33,408 nucleotides of DNA from Candidatus Pacearchaeota archaeon (GTDB lineage: Archaea; Nanobdellota; Nanobdellia; Pacearchaeales; GW2011-AR1). The stretch spans positions 1 through 33,408 of the forward strand of contig JAGVXG010000010.1 in assembly GCA_018303885.1 (NCBI GenBank), given 5' to 3'. The position numbers were made by a program, and so were the translations under genes. Each line of letters starts with the position of its first letter. Position 1 is the stretch's first letter. Below the pieces are notes generated by a model that worked only from the letters and a program-made list of their open reading frames with translations, had not been told where the DNA came from and searched no databases. Shown one piece after another: positions 5,529-29,273 of the stretch.

Positions 5529-5631
5529 TCCTACACCCTGTCGTGATTTCAGTCTGGGCGTTCTCATTATAACAACAAACATATTTTCCATTACACAAAT
5601 ATTAATAAACAAACAGCATTTACAATATTTT

Positions 5632-6000
5632 ATGAATAATTATTACAAAACAATGATTGCTTTTGGAGCCTTGACATTTGGAGTTGCTGCTTGTTCTAAA
5701 AAACCCGAAACACGACCAGTTTCTGTAGCAGATACAACTGTTTCCATCCAACCTGTTCCTCAAGATACTCTTCCAAGCAGCTATACTGTTCAACAAGGAG
5801 ATTATCTTTGGAGAATTTCTTACAGAGAACTAGGAGCAAGAGGAGACTCTGCAATAACAGAAGGAGTCAAACAAATTCAAAGTTTAAGCAATCTAAGTCT
5901 TGATAGAGATATCTCAATGGTAGTTGATGGACAATTAGTTCCGGGAAAAGATGGCCTTGCGGATTTAATTTATCCTGGTGAAGTTTTAAAAATTCGTTAA
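5632..6000 (+). CDS. LysM-domain putative lipoprotein
   Basis: Starting at the internal ATG: MNNYYKTMIAFGALTFGVAACSKKPET (lipobox-like) and SYTVQQGDYLWRISYRELG...VPGKDGLADLIYPGEVLKIR, typical LysM. Confidence 0.75.
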   Translation: MNNYYKTMIAFGALTFGVAACSKKPETRPVSVADTTVSIQPVPQDTLPSSYTVQQGDYLWRISYRELGARGDSAITEGVKQIQSLSNLSLDRDISMVVDGQLVPGKDGLADLIYPGEVLKIR

Positions 6001-6101
6001 TTTTCTTCAATTATTGATAATCAAAACTTTAATAATCAATAAAGCTCCGCCAAATTTCTTATCCATTATTTTATTTTGGATTTTAGAAAAAAGTTATTAG
6101 T

Positions 6102-6731
6102 CTAATTTTTCCTATTACTAACTTTATTATTATCTTTTGTCCCGGCAGCTTTTTCAGTTGCTTTTCCAACAGGTTGCTTTTGCTCAGTTTTCTGCCCGCT
6201 AGTTGCTTGTCCTGCGCCGCCTTTTGTAAACTTCAATAAGTCAAAGAAAGATTTCTTTTCCATGAATAAAACAGTTCTGCTTTTATCTTCAACATGCGCC
6301 ATTAGCAAGCCCAAACCTTTCAAAAACGCTGTGCAGTTCCAGATAACCTCACCATCAGTTATATTTACAAAAACCAAAATCTTTTCTATCTGGTATGTCA
6401 TGCCACGATTGTGCATTTCATCTGTCAAAGTCGGTTCTATTTCATCGACATCCATTTTTATTTTTTCAGTTAGCGCCTTAGGGACAAACTTCTTATGCGT
6501 AAGAGTCTCTGCTTTCTTTCCAAGAGGAGCTCTTTCAACTTTTTTGTCTACTTTAAAGCTGACAATCATCTTTATTTTTGGAGAATAAAAATCTACTTGT
6601 GTTTCGCTTCGCTTTTCAGCAAAATCCCTTGTGAAAAACAAGGAGCAAAGGTAGGCTTTTGGATCTTCTTTCATAAAATCCTTAAAAACTTGAGATTCTC
6701 TCACCTTTTTTATATACGCTTCTGGTTTCAT
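6102..6731 (-). CDS. Hypothetical protein, 209 aa, basic low-complexity C-terminus
   Basis: Long ORF in coding context; no recognised domain. Confidence 0.65.
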   Translation of the reverse strand: MKPEAYIKKVRESQVFKDFMKEDPKAYLCSLFFTRDFAEKRSETQVDFYSPKIKMIVSFKVDKKVERAPLGKKAETLTHKKFVPKALTEKIKMDVDEIEPTLTDEMHNRGMTYQIEKILVFVNITDGEVIWNCTAFLKGLGLLMAHVEDKSRTVLFMEKKSFFDLLKFTKGGAGQATSGQKTEQKQPVGKATEKAAGTKDNNKVSNRKN

Positions 6732-12324: not shown

Positions 12325-12762
12325 TTATTTTATTGAACTATCAGAGGGTTGTAAAGTCTCAATACCTTGAATATAATATCTCGTGCTTCCTCTTGTTGGA
12401 AAAGGGATAATAGATTGAATATAACTAATTTTAATTTTTTGCTGATTGTTTAAGGCATCTTGTAACTTATAAACAAGACTATCAACATTTTCGTCATGAT
12501 CTGTTTTTCGGTCAATGCTAAAATTCCAAAGGTTCGCTCCAACACTTCTTCCTCCGACAATTCCTTCTAATGCCATTTGCCCTTCATGTGTTTTCCAAAA
12601 TAAGCCTTTTTTTGAAACCTTGTTTATAACTCCAACTCTTTCGCCTTGAGAATAATCTATGCTATTCACTAATCGGCATGTTCCGCAAGTTGCCACTAAA
12701 GCGGCTCCCGTTAATAGAGTTCCTATTCCAAATTTTTGTAATCGATTACTGGGATAACTCAT
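12325..12762 (-). CDS. Small lipoprotein/membrane protein resembling a bacterial 'YSxGERxGxxxKxSxKGxxxKTxEG' family
   Basis: 145 aa; GTLLTGAALVATCGTCRLV N-terminal hydrophobic segment; DYSQGERVGVINKVSKKGLFWKTHEGQMAL. Confidence 0.55.
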   Translation of the reverse strand: MSYPSNRLQKFGIGTLLTGAALVATCGTCRLVNSIDYSQGERVGVINKVSKKGLFWKTHEGQMALEGIVGGRSVGANLWNFSIDRKTDHDENVDSLVYKLQDALNNQQKIKISYIQSIIPFPTRGSTRYYIQGIETLQPSDSSIK

Positions 12763-12831
12763 AATTTCTTCATCAACTCCAACTTTATAAATCTTTCTCT
12801 TTTGTTACCTTTTAAGAATTAAAACAGTATT

Positions 12832-22322: not shown

Positions 22323-22447
22323 TTGGATTTTTCCTGAATACGAATGAATGAAAATCTTTGATTTGCTTTCATAAGCCTCTTTTATTTAAACAATATGATA
22401 AATTAGAGAGTATTGTATTTAAATATTTCTTATAGTGTTTCTTTAAG

Positions 22448-24796
22448 TTAATTATATTCAATTCCGCCGCCTACTTTTCTATTAGTAGATAGATTTCCAG
22501 TTGTTCCGGTTTCTGAGACGGGGGTAAGTTTTCTAGTATTCGGATAAAAAATTTCGGCTCGAGGATATTTTTCTCTTATTGTTTCAATAACATCACTAGC
22601 TTTTTCTTCTGATGTTGCCCTTAGAACCAGGGAGTAATCAGATAAGAATGATAATGTGTAAGGATGGAGCGTTTCTTCAGACCTATCTGTTCTCCTATAA
22701 TCTATATTAACCCCTTCTCGAAAAAATCTTCTTCTGAGTAATTTTTTCTTTACTCCTAAATGCTCTTTCATTTCTTCGTCTATTTGACGAGTAATAGGCC
22801 CAGTAGGAATATCTTTTATTTCTATCCTAGCATACTCCCTCATCTCCTGCTTCGGCATCTCGCTCGGCAAACCCGCTTCGAGGCGTTTTCTTCTCAATGC
22901 ACGGTTTGTGAGATATTTTTGTAATCCCTTGCGTAATCCCCATGCTAAAGGTAGAGAAGAGAATTGTAAAGCAAATGCTTCAGGAACAGAATAAGAACCT
23001 AAAACATACCCAGCAGTGCTTAATCCAAGAGCCCCTAATCCCGAGCCCAAAGCTACTTTATTTGTGACGGCATCAATCTTCTTCTCTTCTTCCCAACTCA
23101 ACTCAACATCTTCACCTCGAGTTTCCAAACCTTGCGCAACACGAGCTTGGTAAATCCACGTATCCATTTCACGCGCTCTTTTGATAAGTTTTCTTTTTGC
23201 GACGTATTGGCCGATTTTTGAGCCGGTAATTGCACCTAAAGCCAAACTCCCAAAAAAGTCTACTACTCCAACTATTACTGCATATTTTTGAGGCATAGGT
23301 ACAACTCCTAAATATTTAAGAAAAGGAATAGTGGCGAAGGCGCCTCCATAACCTCCGATAATGCCAGCAACAGCGCCTATGTTAACAAAATCATCTTCAC
23401 CAACCCCCAAAACATCGCAAATATCTTTTCGTCTTTGAAGATGTGCGTGTTTTGCTTCTTGATAAGCTTCTCTATTATATGATGGTAAAAGTGGACTTTC
23501 TCGAACACTTTTTCTAAAATCCATTTTTCTTGGTTTTTTCTCTCTCGCCAAACTTTCTAAACTTTTTCCTTGAACAGCATCTTGTAAAATTGAATGTTCT
23601 GTTTGTGCTGCGTGTTGGAGATAGGCGAGAGGAAATTCTGGATTAGTTGCTAGAGTTTGTATGTGTCTTGCTGTTTCGTAAACATCAGATTTCTTAACAA
23701 AAGAGTTTCCATCAATTATGACCAAAGCATCATTTTCTTCAACTTTAATCGGCAAATTTGAATTTTCTTGTCTTTTTATTTCTGGTTTTGGTTGCTCCTG
23801 AACTCTCGCTTCAACTCTTGGAGCTAAACTTCTATGCCCTAAAATAGCTTCAAGTTCTTCGCGTGTTTGTGGCGCGCGTTCAATGTTGTAACCTAAGTCT
23901 CTAGCGATTTCTATAAGGCTTCCATATCTCTCGTCAATTTTCAAATTTGTTCCTTTTCTTATTGCAGTGATTAATTTTTCTGGTACATTTGGAGCTGTTA
24001 CTCTGCTCAAATCCTTTTTTCCAAAATTTTCAAGCATTATGCACTCTTCCAGTGTTCTAAATAATCCATACCAATCAGTAGTTGAGTTTACTTCTCCCCA
24101 TTGTTGTTCTGGAGGTCTATAGCCTAAACTTCCAAGAACGCTTCCAGACATTGTAGCATCGCCGACTTTACTCTCAGTCAAATCAACCAATTTGAATGGG
24201 TATGGAGAATCTCCATTTACATCCATTATATTTGCAGGTTTTATGTCACGATGATGAACTGGTTGGCTTCTTGAAGTGTGCATATATTCAATAACGCCTC
24301 CTAAGCCAAATAATAATTTTAGCAAATCTTCTTGACTGGGGGAATATTTTTTCTTGATGTGCTCTGAAATCGGTTCGCCGTCTACAAATTCCATAACAAC
24401 ATGGGGAACCATTATTCCTTTTCCATTATTTTCCCAATAATATCCAAGAACCTGAACTAACCCAGAATGGTGCAACATAGAATAGGTTCCAACAAGGCTT
24501 TCAAGCTCTTTCTCTGGAGACCTTGATCCTTGCATATCATCGGGATTGAAGCTTCCTGTTAACTCTTTTATTGCAACATTTCTTCCTGTTTTTGAATCAG
24601 CTGCCTTGTAAATCCACGAATTTTTATTTGGGTTTCCTCTTCTATGAACTTTTAATTCTGGAAATCTCTCACGCCAGTTTGTAATTCTTCCTTCATACTG
24701 TGATGTAATTGCTTCTAAATCTGCTTGCGTTGCTGGTTGGACTAAAGGACTTTGTGTAGCTTCAACAACAGGCCCGCCATCATCATAATCTGTCAT
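22448..24796 (-). CDS. Ser/Thr protein kinase with multi-TM C-terminal half
   Basis: NVAIKEL, VHHRDIKPANIM, FKLVDLTESK, GSLGYRPPEQ kinase motifs; hydrophobic Gly/Ala-rich helices between the kinase domain and C-terminus. ATGA overlap with the upstream gene. Confidence 0.88.
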   Translation of the reverse strand: MTDYDDGGPVVEATQSPLVQPATQADLEAITSQYEGRITNWRERFPELKVHRRGNPNKNSWIYKAADSKTGRNVAIKELTGSFNPDDMQGSRSPEKELESLVGTYSMLHHSGLVQVLGYYWENNGKGIMVPHVVMEFVDGEPISEHIKKKYSPSQEDLLKLLFGLGGVIEYMHTSRSQPVHHRDIKPANIMDVNGDSPYPFKLVDLTESKVGDATMSGSVLGSLGYRPPEQQWGEVNSTTDWYGLFRTLEECIMLENFGKKDLSRVTAPNVPEKLITAIRKGTNLKIDERYGSLIEIARDLGYNIERAPQTREELEAILGHRSLAPRVEARVQEQPKPEIKRQENSNLPIKVEENDALVIIDGNSFVKKSDVYETARHIQTLATNPEFPLAYLQHAAQTEHSILQDAVQGKSLESLAREKKPRKMDFRKSVRESPLLPSYNREAYQEAKHAHLQRRKDICDVLGVGEDDFVNIGAVAGIIGGYGGAFATIPFLKYLGVVPMPQKYAVIVGVVDFFGSLALGAITGSKIGQYVAKRKLIKRAREMDTWIYQARVAQGLETRGEDVELSWEEEKKIDAVTNKVALGSGLGALGLSTAGYVLGSYSVPEAFALQFSSLPLAWGLRKGLQKYLTNRALRRKRLEAGLPSEMPKQEMREYARIEIKDIPTGPITRQIDEEMKEHLGVKKKLLRRRFFREGVNIDYRRTDRSEETLHPYTLSFLSDYSLVLRATSEEKASDVIETIREKYPRAEIFYPNTRKLTPVSETGTTGNLSTNRKVGGGIEYN

Positions 24797-26427
24797 TTTA
24801 TTTTATCCTCTAAATTTTTATAAAAATTTTTTTTTATTAACTCATTCTCATTAACATAACCTAATAATTTTTTAGAGGAATATTTTGGTAATTTGGGTTC
24901 GTTAATATAACCAGTATAAGATCCAAAACTGCCAGATGAACTAGTAGTCTCTTCAGCTTCACGCATTCTTCCGAAAAAAAGACTTACTCTTTTGTACCAT
25001 GGTCCGCTTCCGCGAATATTTATGAGTCCATATTGATTAACATTTCCTCTTCCAGCATAATTAATTAGTCCGATTTGCGTTCCTACTTTTCTTTCTAAAC
25101 TATCTGACCTACTTTTACCAATTTCTCCAGTAATATTTAAAATCCCCCCACTTTGATGTTCGCCAATTTTTCTAGCAATATTTATTAAATTAGTCCCTCC
25201 TTGTCCTTTTCCAACTTCTCCCGCAATATTTGCCAACATACCAAGCGCTACCTGATCTCTTCCAACTTCTCTGGCAATATTTAATCCTGAGAATAATCCG
25301 CGCTGGTCTCCCCCAACTTCTCTGGCAATATTCGCTAATGTAAAAACTCCAATCTGATACCCTCCAACTTCTCTGGCAATATTTGGAATTAAGATACGCA
25401 CTCGTTCTTCGCCTAGTTTGTAAATGGATTTAGCTTTTGCGGCAATTTGAGGATATTGATCTGCTCTTTTTTCAGGTGGAATTGGGAGGTTTCTTATAGC
25501 GGCATCAAAAGCATCATAAAATTCTAAAACATTTCTGTAACGATTTTCTGGTTTTTCTTGTGTTGCTTTTTGGAGAACTTTTACAACGCCTTTTGGAACA
25601 TTCAAAGTTTCAAAATCTTTTTCACTTGGAATTCCATCTGAAGCTTCAAATAAGTCTTTTCCAAGAAGCATGAATTGCGCGACTTTTCCTAAACTGTATA
25701 TATCTGCTCTTACATCTGATTCTTCTCCTTCACTAACCTCTGGAGCTGTGAAATATTTTGTATACATCTGTGTTCTAATCAAAGTTCTTCCAGTTGAGGG
25801 GTTTGAAGAAGAAGCCCAATCAATTAAAATTGGAGTTCCATTAACTAATATGTTCCCCGGATTAATGTCTTTATGAGTAATTGGCTTAGCACCATTTTTA
25901 GTGTGTGCATATTCAAGAGGTTCTCTAAGTCCTCCAACTACTTCCCATGTTTTTTCTAATGAAGGCGTATAAGTTGGATCTGCAACTTCTTCTTCTAACT
26001 TCTTTCCAGGAAAAGATTCAAAAACTGCAACAGGTGATTTTATGAAAGAGCCAGTTGTTCCACATTCTAGTAAAATAGGCAATCCAGAGACACCATCTGC
26101 ATTTGCTCTTTTTAAAAAACCAATTTCTCTTCCAGCTCTTTTCTCTTCATGAAAAATAGCTTCCCAACTTCCTGTTTCCTTTGCAGAATAAACTTTAACA
26201 ACAGCATCAAGTCCATCTTCTCTTCTTTTAGCTCTGAAAACTCCTCCTTGTCCTCCGTTTTCAGTATTAGCAAGCTGTTCTCCTAATTCATACTTTGCTA
26301 GAATATCTCCTTCAGTATATTCGATGTTTCTGTTTTGTGATGGCGCGGTTAAAGCTTTTTGCCGAGCTAACATTTCGTCCATTTTTTGGCTAGCTTCAAT
26401 ATCTGCTCTTGTAACTCCATTTCCCAT
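24793..26427 (-). CDS. Ser/Thr protein kinase with C-terminal tandem ~17-aa repeats
   Basis: AVVKVYS, ITHKDINPGNILVNGTPILIDWA, YFTAPEVSEGEESDVRADIYSLG; then NIAREVGGYQIGVFTLA/NIAREVGGDQRGLFSGL/NIAREVGRDQVALGMLA repeats. Confidence 0.88.
   Translation of the reverse strand: MGNGVTRADIEASQKMDEMLARQKALTAPSQNRNIEYTEGDILAKYELGEQLANTENGGQGGVFRAKRREDGLDAVVKVYSAKETGSWEAIFHEEKRAGREIGFLKRANADGVSGLPILLECGTTGSFIKSPVAVFESFPGKKLEEEVADPTYTPSLEKTWEVVGGLREPLEYAHTKNGAKPITHKDINPGNILVNGTPILIDWASSSNPSTGRTLIRTQMYTKYFTAPEVSEGEESDVRADIYSLGKVAQFMLLGKDLFEASDGIPSEKDFETLNVPKGVVKVLQKATQEKPENRYRNVLEFYDAFDAAIRNLPIPPEKRADQYPQIAAKAKSIYKLGEERVRILIPNIAREVGGYQIGVFTLANIAREVGGDQRGLFSGLNIAREVGRDQVALGMLANIAGEVGKGQGGTNLINIARKIGEHQSGGILNITGEIGKSRSDSLERKVGTQIGLINYAGRGNVNQYGLINIRGSGPWYKRVSLFFGRMREAEETTSSSGSFGSYTGYINEPKLPKYSSKKLLGYVNENELIKKNFYKNLEDKIK
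25010..25386 (-). repeat. Tandem 51-nt (17-aa) coding repeats in the kinase gene
   Basis: 'ccaacttctc...gcaatatt' at 25211, 25262, 25313 and 25364, exactly 51 nt apart, with degenerate units on the low-coordinate side. Confidence 0.9.
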
Positions 26428-26428
26428 T

Positions 26429-26581
26429 TTATTTTCCCTCCTCCCCTTCTTTTTCCTTCAAAATCTTATTCAAGCTGAATTCAACAGCATGAGATTTATT
26501 TCTAAATATACCTGTTGCTATGATTTCATCTATAAGTTTTAATGTTTTCTCTTCAACTGTAACGGATATTTTTTGTTTCAT
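26429..26581 (-). CDS. Ribbon-helix-helix (CopG/Arc) transcriptional regulator, 50 aa
   Basis: Hand-translated minus strand: MKQKISVTVEEKTLKLIDEIIATGIFRNKSHAVEFSLNKILKEKEGEEGK*. Classic RHH pattern; absent from the ORF track (below its length cutoff); GGAGGG lies just before the downstream kinase start. Confidence 0.85.
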   Translation of the reverse strand: MKQKISVTVEEKTLKLIDEIIATGIFRNKSHAVEFSLNKILKEKEGEEGK

Positions 26582-26582
26582 T

Positions 26583-27014
26583 TTATGGTTTTAGTCCCGT
26601 AAGGGCATAGATTTCTGCTTGTGGCTCATTGTGAAAAAAATATGCTAAATGCCCTTTATTTTCAATATGCCCATCTGCAATATGATATAGTTCATGTTTT
26701 AGTGAATGTTCGCTTGCTCCTAAATTGGATAAAACTATTTCATACTCCCCTTCTTTAATTTTTCTAGCATAAGCAGTAGGAGAACTATCTTTGTCTGTGA
26801 TTAATCTCGCAGTAATTACTATATTTTTTCCTATTTTATCTTTTAATTTTTCTCTTTCTTCAGAAAGTTTTAATTCAAGTTGAGACTGATTTTCTATTTT
26901 TGGAGACCTAGAAAAAGCAACACTCTGGACACCTGATAATAAAGCGATGTATGCGGAGCCGGCTAATGCGATTGCGAACATTGCCTTTCCAAGATGTCTT
27001 AAAGCTTTTTTCAT
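26583..27014 (-). CDS. Membrane-anchored HExxH metallopeptidase, ImmA/IrrE-like
   Basis: N-terminal hydrophobic segment AMFAIALAGSAYIALLSGV; SLKHELYHIADGH (HExxH) and NEPQAEIYAL (downstream Glu, ImmA/IrrE-like spacing). Confidence 0.65.
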   Translation of the reverse strand: MKKALRHLGKAMFAIALAGSAYIALLSGVQSVAFSRSPKIENQSQLELKLSEEREKLKDKIGKNIVITARLITDKDSSPTAYARKIKEGEYEIVLSNLGASEHSLKHELYHIADGHIENKGHLAYFFHNEPQAEIYALTGLKP

Positions 27015-27136
27015 TTTATCCTACTTTATAGTATTTTATTGCATATTACCGGCTTTATAAATATTTCCGTGCGTTGTAATTTTAAAAAGGTAACAAGATT
27101 AATATAATAAAGGAATTTAAATAATTAATTACTTAT

Positions 27137-28315: not shown

Positions 28316-28639
28316 ATGGACAACTATGTATTAATTCAAGAAAACGATTTCCAAAAAGCTAGAAGAAAAATAAATGAAGCCAGAAAAAACGGGAAAGCAG
28401 TGATTTTTTCAAGCAATGATGACGAGCTTAACAGGAAGATTCTTGAAAAAGAGAATGTGGATTGTCTTTTAATAAACCTAGCCGGAAGAAAAGACAGTCG
28501 AGTTCGACAGAATATAAAATTATGCAACAAGAATAAGTTAAAAATGACTTTTATTTCTAAAGAAAAGCAAGATACTTACAATTTAAAATCTCTTGGCTTG
28601 GTTCTTGGTATGCCGACATGGATGACGAAAGAGATCTAG
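28316..28639 (+). CDS. Short RNase P protein p30 (Rpp30/Rnp3)-like protein, 107 aa
   Basis: KAVIFSSNDDELNRKILEKENVDCLLINLAGRKDSRVRQNIKLCNKNKLKMTFIS matches the Rpp30 core pattern (N..A.E...VDIL......RKDS....N..L.....K....). Confidence 0.6.
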   Translation: MDNYVLIQENDFQKARRKINEARKNGKAVIFSSNDDELNRKILEKENVDCLLINLAGRKDSRVRQNIKLCNKNKLKMTFISKEKQDTYNLKSLGLVLGMPTWMTKEI

Positions 28640-29052
28640 TTATCTTTCCTAAGAATATCAAGAAGACCTATGTTTGTAAAAACTTTAATTTTATTTTGTT
28701 CCTTGAAATGAGAATCATGAGTCCAAATTCCTTTGGCTTTTTTTATAATCGCTACAGAAATGTAGGGGATATCTTTTATGTCAGAAACTTCTCCTTTTGT
28801 TGTTTTAATTAATTTTCCATATTCTGATTCTGGAATAATAAATATGTTTTCAAAAAGTATTTTTATAAGTATGTCAAAATAAGCTTCGGTTATATGCGCC
28901 TTTTTAAGAATATAAAATTTATAATTATTAATCTCACTAAAAATATAAGAGGGGGCAATAAATTCAAATTTTTTATTAAATAGAAGATTTCTTGTTGTAC
29001 TATCTTTTATTAAAGCAGCAATTACCCTGTTGCTGTCTATTACAATTTTCAT
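28636..29052 (-). CDS. PIN-domain toxin, VapC-like
   Basis: KIVIDSNRVIAALI, SEINNY, DIKDIPYISVAIIKKAKGIWTHDSHFKE acidic PIN residues; paired with a VapB-like gene via ATGA overlap. Confidence 0.85.
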   Translation of the reverse strand: MKIVIDSNRVIAALIKDSTTRNLLFNKKFEFIAPSYIFSEINNYKFYILKKAHITEAYFDILIKILFENIFIIPESEYGKLIKTTKGEVSDIKDIPYISVAIIKKAKGIWTHDSHFKEQNKIKVFTNIGLLDILRKDN

Positions 29053-29273
29053 TTAAGTCCATGTCTTTTTGCAATTCCCTCATTTATCTTTCTACCTAAT
29101 TTTAAAGCGTCCTCTTCAGTTAATTTACTATTAGCTAAAATTTTATCCATTAACTCAAGTTTTGCAGCCTGGTTCTGAATTGCCTGTCTTGCTATTTCAC
29201 TCCATTTTATATGCTTATTCTTTCTCATAATTTCATGGAGATCTTTTGGAATTGCTAACGTCATGTTCGTCAT
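29049..29273 (-). CDS. VapB-like antitoxin
   Basis: MTNMTLAIPKDLHEIMRKNKHIKWSEIARQAIQNQAAKLELMDKILANSKLTEEDALKLGRKINEGIAKRHG; N-terminal RHH-like, archaeal VapB pattern. Confidence 0.8.
   Translation of the reverse strand: MTNMTLAIPKDLHEIMRKNKHIKWSEIARQAIQNQAAKLELMDKILANSKLTEEDALKLGRKINEGIAKRHGLK

Follow-up and report, generated by a model that had tools for sequence, protein, structure and literature searches.

An apparent accessory kinase operon with its own RHH regulator in a Pacearchaeota archaeon

Very few signalling systems have been described in DPANN archaea, whose genomes are tiny. What, in such a cell, would a membrane peptidase, a small DNA-binding regulator and two protein kinases do when their genes lie end to end? 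The question is raised by the window analysed here, a 33,408-nucleotide stretch of a Pacearchaeota genome (720 kb, 85% complete). Four minus-strand genes, separated by gaps of 1 nt and 1 nt and joined at the last junction by an ATGA overlap, encode PEP (26583–27014, 143 aa), a membrane-anchored HExxH metallopeptidase-like protein; RHH (26429–26581, 50 aa), a CopG/Arc-like regulator of a family with a FRNKSH motif; K1 (24793–26427, 544 aa), a soluble Hanks-type kinase; and K2 (22448–24796, 782 aa), a second Hanks-type kinase with a C-terminal membrane module. This packing had been described in an earlier, sequence-only reading of the DNA, and the ORF listing reproduces its coordinates and junctions exactly. 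Genome and profile searches found homologues elsewhere for all four proteins, which represent genuine families or domains, and the genes probably form a single transcription unit with one RHH-type promoter. That reading had also failed to recognise the combination as a described system, and we agree: a literature search confined to open-licence papers turned up no system with an RHH protein, Hanks kinases and a membrane HExxH peptidase, and nothing relevant on RHH with a kinase in DPANN, on Pacearchaeota protein kinases or on phosphorylated RHH. We propose, with a probability of roughly 0.55, that the locus is a laterally acquired (or lost), RHH-autoregulated accessory membrane-signalling kinase operon. 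It seems to represent, as an accessory signalling operon, a self-regulated type that is widespread, and not a known defence system.

The cassette (approximately 22432–27094) appears to sit between two chromosomal genes that are conserved, in an archaeon of the Pacearchaeota/Nanoarchaeota type. In G003, G008 and G009 these flanking genes, a 252-aa gene and a DUF357 gene, are adjacent (80–175 nt apart) with several genes syntenic on both sides, and G007 has the same junction on a short contig. Since the flanking genes are directly adjacent in four genomes of the same genus, the operon came or went as a single block, and the simplest reading is that the window genome gained it and not that its sisters lost it. 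The promoter-like sequence of the 252-aa gene, TATTTAAATATTTC, is kept at the left edge of the cassette. Around the cassette no attachment-site repeats were found, but merely short AT-rich matches of the kind that promoter sequence would give. tRNA-linked insertion was considered and rejected, as it is clear in G003 only. Close to the operon lies a VapBC-like toxin–antitoxin pair, consisting of a 138-aa PIN ORF (PF10130) and an overlapping upstream 74-aa ORF (28636–29273, minus strand), whose genes have no match in the sister loci compared.

The 50-residue regulator is the most widespread part of the locus. It scores just under the cut-off of the Pfam RHH_1 model (E 0.0016, 18.7 against 20.5 bits), and ParD and NikR RHH models also match weakly. 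A profile built from the copies in the window, G003 and G172 finds homologues of 45–55 aa in 93 of the 180 family genomes, with a single copy in the window's own genome. Among 65 RHH loci examined, RHH lies within 15 nt of the next gene in 54 and overlaps it in 47, and what follows is varied: AAA_5-type ATPases (17), Hanks kinases (6), pilin-like genes (5), RIO-like candidates (3) and others. In this archaeal family, about a hundred further operons appear to begin with related RHH regulators, and the recurring unit is smaller than the foursome: RHH is a generic operon head with swapped cargo. Because it heads many non-kinase operons, RHH itself says little on kinase biology. About half of the sampled family genomes, then, carry the same tiny regulator, which in most cases heads an operon with a candidate operator and a promoter that can be recognised. 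In the AAA_5-ATPase operons, the ATPase gene is often followed by at least one paralogous protein of 230–300 aa with C-terminal LGVRxxR or VxCAEGT-like motifs (loci L084, L087, L088, L093, L095–L099, L101, L106, L081–L083, L094 and L105).

Where would such a regulator bind? Upstream of PEP, on the minus strand, we found a promoter box of the GTTAC..GTAAC type, GTTACCTTTTTAAAATTACAAC (27073–27094), followed by a BRE/TATA box, GGAAATATTTATAAA (27054–27068), which aligns with the TATA of other RHH operons, and, between TATA and start codon, by a candidate RHH operator of the form TACT-N4-AGTA, TACTATAAAGTA (27022–27033). Across the whole genome, the full promoter pattern in its strict form has a single match, the one before PEP. 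GTWAC lies 3–30 nt before the BRE/TATA in 36 of 63 RHH-operon leaders and in 7 of 217 other operon leaders at the same loci (p 2e-21). As the RHH operator itself the box was rejected, since it is also found before stand-alone PEP genes, repeat proteins and five other genes of the window's own genome that have no RHH beside them. The leader offers a better candidate: TACT or AGTA is present in 25 of 36 leaders of RHH operons as against 7 of 28 leaders of other box promoters (p=9e-4), and the leaders are longer as well (38 nt compared with 29 nt). It is on this moderate enrichment, together with the single RHH copy and the single strict promoter pattern, that the suggestion of RHH autorepression is based. 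TrmB-type archaeal operators, TACT-N3-AGTA and TACT-N7-8-GAGTA (PMC4158304), are similar in having inverted TACT...AGTA sites at the TATA or start site, but the candidate sites here go with RHH genes and have N4 spacing in the window.

Both kinases have the sequence hallmarks of the Hanks type. Pkinase (PF00069) is matched above cut-off by K1 (E 4.5e-18, domain 25606–26259) and K2 (E 1e-15, domain 24062–24619), and both keep the catalytic residues, namely the lysine of VVK/VAIK, the Asp and Asn of HKDINPGN/HRDIKPAN and the metal-binding Asp of IDWA/VDLT. K1 carries NIAREVGGxQ repeats at residues ~349–470 (about 25018–25383), which stand-alone ORFs in G006 and G038 share. Matches to NF047436 (LA_2272-type surface repeat proteins) reach 13.9–15.6 bits, below the cut-off of 25. 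A single-sequence AlphaFold model of K1 reached a pLDDT of 35. The stand-alone proteins, made largely of NxAxEVGGxQ repeats (L013:6521–7432 and L014:7328–8377), each have a box-type promoter. In K2 we count 3–4 hydrophobic segments, with the membrane module at about 22715–23710. Two kinases, repeats in the first and several membrane segments in the second had all been proposed from the letters, and all stand.

In G003 a single kinase gene, coding for 775 aa, comes after RHH, 72 nt behind a tRNA-Val. The kinase domain of its product is of the K1 type (56% over 313 aa), while the C-terminal membrane module is of the K2 type, and the QPATxADLE N-terminus is possibly K2-type as well. A K1-type domain inside a K2-type membrane protein means that the neighbouring kinases have a common history and swap domains, and this links them to one function. 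The K2 membrane module is clearly found, among 281 class genomes, only in the window genome and in G003, of the same genus, a third match being marginal; no relatives came to light when K1 was used to search the named genome contigs.

Is the link between RHH and kinases more than coincidence? PF00069 kinases are present in 160 of the 180 family genomes and were divided by ORF length into short ones of ~200–250 aa, one per genome and presumably the Bud32-like universal kinase, and 38 long accessory kinases. Of these 38, 6 have an RHH gene no more than 1.5 kb upstream on their own strand, in 6 distinct operons, where 0.019 would be expected; since the window and G003 copies had gone into the RHH profile, two of the six are not independent, leaving four (G011, G025, G194 and G211) against an expectation of about 0.02. 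In G211 RHH precedes two tandem kinases, as in the window, and the RHH-linked kinases of G194, G025 and G011 have, as read by eye, a hydrophobic stretch resembling a TM segment behind the kinase domain. A subset of the RHH operons encodes kinases, and among these, neighbouring genes have swapped domains. The sequence-only reading expected its four genes to keep company in related genomes, and the outcome is divided: the complete foursome PEP-RHH-K1-K2 occurs only in the window genome among the 180, most of which are draft assemblies (the named ones MAGs) with neighbourhoods cut at contig ends and small-protein E-values that rest on profile scores, yet RHH–kinase adjacency is far above chance.

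As the sequence-only reading had it, PEP appears to be a membrane HExxH peptidase, with an N-terminal TM helix, HELYH (26682–26696) and a downstream glutamate; in 16 aligned sequences of its family H107, E108 and E130 are invariant and H111 nearly so. Its assignment to the ImmA/IrrE type, in contrast, had to be dropped. HExxH with a downstream Glu is common to many gluzincins and has no diagnostic value for ImmA/IrrE (M78), whose Pfam profile matches neither PEP nor its 15 homologues at E 0.5; the family has no Pfam entry and no convincing match to any Pfam peptidase. Foldseek searches with the AlphaFold model of PEP (pLDDT 82) returned mostly Zn peptidases at the top (M32, BepA, SPRTN-like, CapP, jannalysin), all weakly (E 0.03 or worse), and CapP (7t5t), which we take to be ImmA/IrrE-like, ranked no better than a SPRTN-like protease. 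These matches point to HExxH zinc peptidases in general. The charges flanking the TM helix (+4 on the N-flank as against +1) suggest that the catalytic domain is outside the cell, with a mixed pattern across the family. PEP homologues occur in 15 of the 180 genomes, the named loci belonging mostly to Pacearchaeota and Nanoarchaeota MAGs; they are mostly stand-alone, and most PEP and most RHH genes are unlinked. Outside the window PEP–RHH adjacency recurs once, in G172, where one operon has the order PEP-RHH-peptidase-kinase-like-TM and includes further HExxH genes. The kinase-like gene there is a tentative RIO-like kinase candidate; of the similar small ORFs of G172, G199, G118 and G047, one has a weak RIO1 match and there is no PDB match, so these assignments are tentative. 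Around PEP-RHH in G172 there are also three paralogous HExxH proteins of ~190–200 aa with an EGDATLI motif (L037:3796–4971 and 5552–6115), and two copies of this kind also lie behind an RHH in L089; the one member scanned has no Pfam family.

How would the operon work? We suggest that RHH binds TACT/AGTA sites beside the promoter and represses the whole unit, and that the products make up a membrane-linked phospho-signalling module. K2 would be the membrane-anchored kinase and K1 the cytosolic one, its repeat tail probably serving as a docking scaffold, while PEP would be a membrane-anchored zinc peptidase, probably outward-facing, and would process either an envelope protein or the part of the pathway that lies outside. 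The operon would then be induced once repression is lifted, perhaps through phosphorylation of RHH. Operator binding, repression, the kinase targets and the substrate and topology of PEP are all inferred here. A stricter version, in which the Hanks kinases phosphorylate a Ser/Thr of the RHH reading strand (KxSxT) and so derepress their own operon, the RHH-plus-operator head being an exchangeable control cassette for alternative cargo of kinases, AAA ATPases or pilin-like genes, seems to us rather unlikely. The Ser/Thr of the DNA-reading strand is conserved, but also in RHH proteins heading non-kinase operons, so that it gives no specific support for RHH phosphorylation. In any case, the candidate binding site, the 50-residue regulator and the two kinases provide testable handles on how accessory surface and signalling genes are regulated in reduced cells.

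Several known systems come close to the cassette. The kinases resemble the membrane Hanks kinases PknB/PrkC/Stk in catalytic domain (NCBIfam PknB_PASTA, 1e-10 to 1e-18) and in their link to the membrane, but lack PASTA, come as a pair together with RHH and a peptidase, and carry NIAREVGG repeats in K1 and, in K2, the membrane module whose clear occurrences are confined to this genus. Among archaeal kinase pairs that have been studied, ArnC and ArnD of Sulfolobus come nearest as analogues with a regulatory output; they are eukaryotic-type kinases that influence gene regulation, with motility as the output (PMC5300886). They belong to a different lineage, and the regulator here is an RHH protein of the same operon. 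With autoregulatory RHH repressors (CopG/Arc/ParD, RHH_1) the cassette shares a tiny RHH gene at or near the operon head and inverted half-sites in the leader, but its FRNKSH subfamily falls below the Pfam cut-off and its cargo is kinases and a peptidase, not a toxin or plasmid-copy gene.

The reading as a kinase operon has points against it, as RHH–kinase operons including that of G003 do without PEP and the upstream GTTAC..GTAAC box is not RHH-specific. In a possible though doubtful alternative, RHH and promoter are a generic self-silencing head, and kinases and peptidase are cargo without mechanistic link to RHH or to each other. The varied cargo of the 65 RHH loci, the mostly stand-alone PEP and the uniqueness of the foursome would all fit, but not the excess of RHH–kinase operons, the domain swap in G003, by which the kinases belong together, or the recurrence of PEP-RHH beside a kinase-like gene in G172.

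Cleavage of RHH by PEP, in the manner of ImmA/ImmR or CapP/CapH, would be another way to induce the operon, and the sequence-only reading had suggested that the peptidase could cleave or release the regulator. As in those pairs and in IrrE/DdrO, an HExxH peptidase gene adjoins a DNA-binding gene, PEP directly preceding RHH both here and in G172, and CapP is among the weak fold matches. We nevertheless consider this very improbable: PEP is membrane-anchored with its catalytic domain suggested to be outside, and so would not reach a repressor in the cytosol, a 50-aa protein offers little to cleave, the two genes mostly live apart, and PEP is not recognised as M78/ImmA. The locus also differs from the known pairs in that the partner is an RHH and not an HTH protein, with kinases in addition. 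Only slightly less improbable is a defence or conflict module, with kinases acting against viruses like MAD6, PglW or PD-T4-6, under the control of RHH and with PEP in the role of effector or sensor. Both K1 and the kinase of G003 do match MAD6 and PD-T4-6 models (for G003, E 1.4e-21 in NCBIfam and 2.4e-27 in PADLOC), the cassette is present or absent as a block and the G003 operon lies just 3' of tRNA-Val. However, these matches cover the kinase domain only, score at a small fraction of what the curated cut-offs demand and are equalled by PknB/PASTA models, that is, they reflect generic kinase similarity, and none of the nine window neighbours scanned is a defence gene or a partner gene of MADS, BREX PglW or PD-T4-6; defence was rejected as the main reading. 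Other accessory kinases of the family, moreover, are often found beside ABC transporters and AbrB-PhoU genes. Of the self-contained signalling or defence module proposed from the letters, the unit of regulator plus kinases, gained or lost as a block, is thus retained and defence is not.

Many of these other accessory kinases belong to an apparently recurrent cluster, in which the kinase gene adjoins an AbrB-PhoU-type gene that is convergent with it and codes for about 300 aa (L142–L151, L160 and L161; e.g. L142:73–951). Near several of them there are ABC transporter genes of the branched-chain type, and upstream of some lies a 60-aa AbrB-like gene.

The box itself belongs to a wider promoter class. 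The pattern TAACAA..AGAAANRTTTATAAA occurs 29 times in 39 relatives and not once in the reversed control. Most of these occurrences precede lineage-specific genes, and the start codon often follows the TATA at a distance of exactly 21 nt. The shared form of the class is (GTTAC..)GTAACAA-TAGAAAGATTTATAAA, seen in the window at 12784–12807 (minus strand) upstream of the ORF 12325–12762, and elsewhere at L171–L174 and L176–L204. Since some TrmB-like regulator genes carry this promoter themselves, a TrmB-like protein may bind it.
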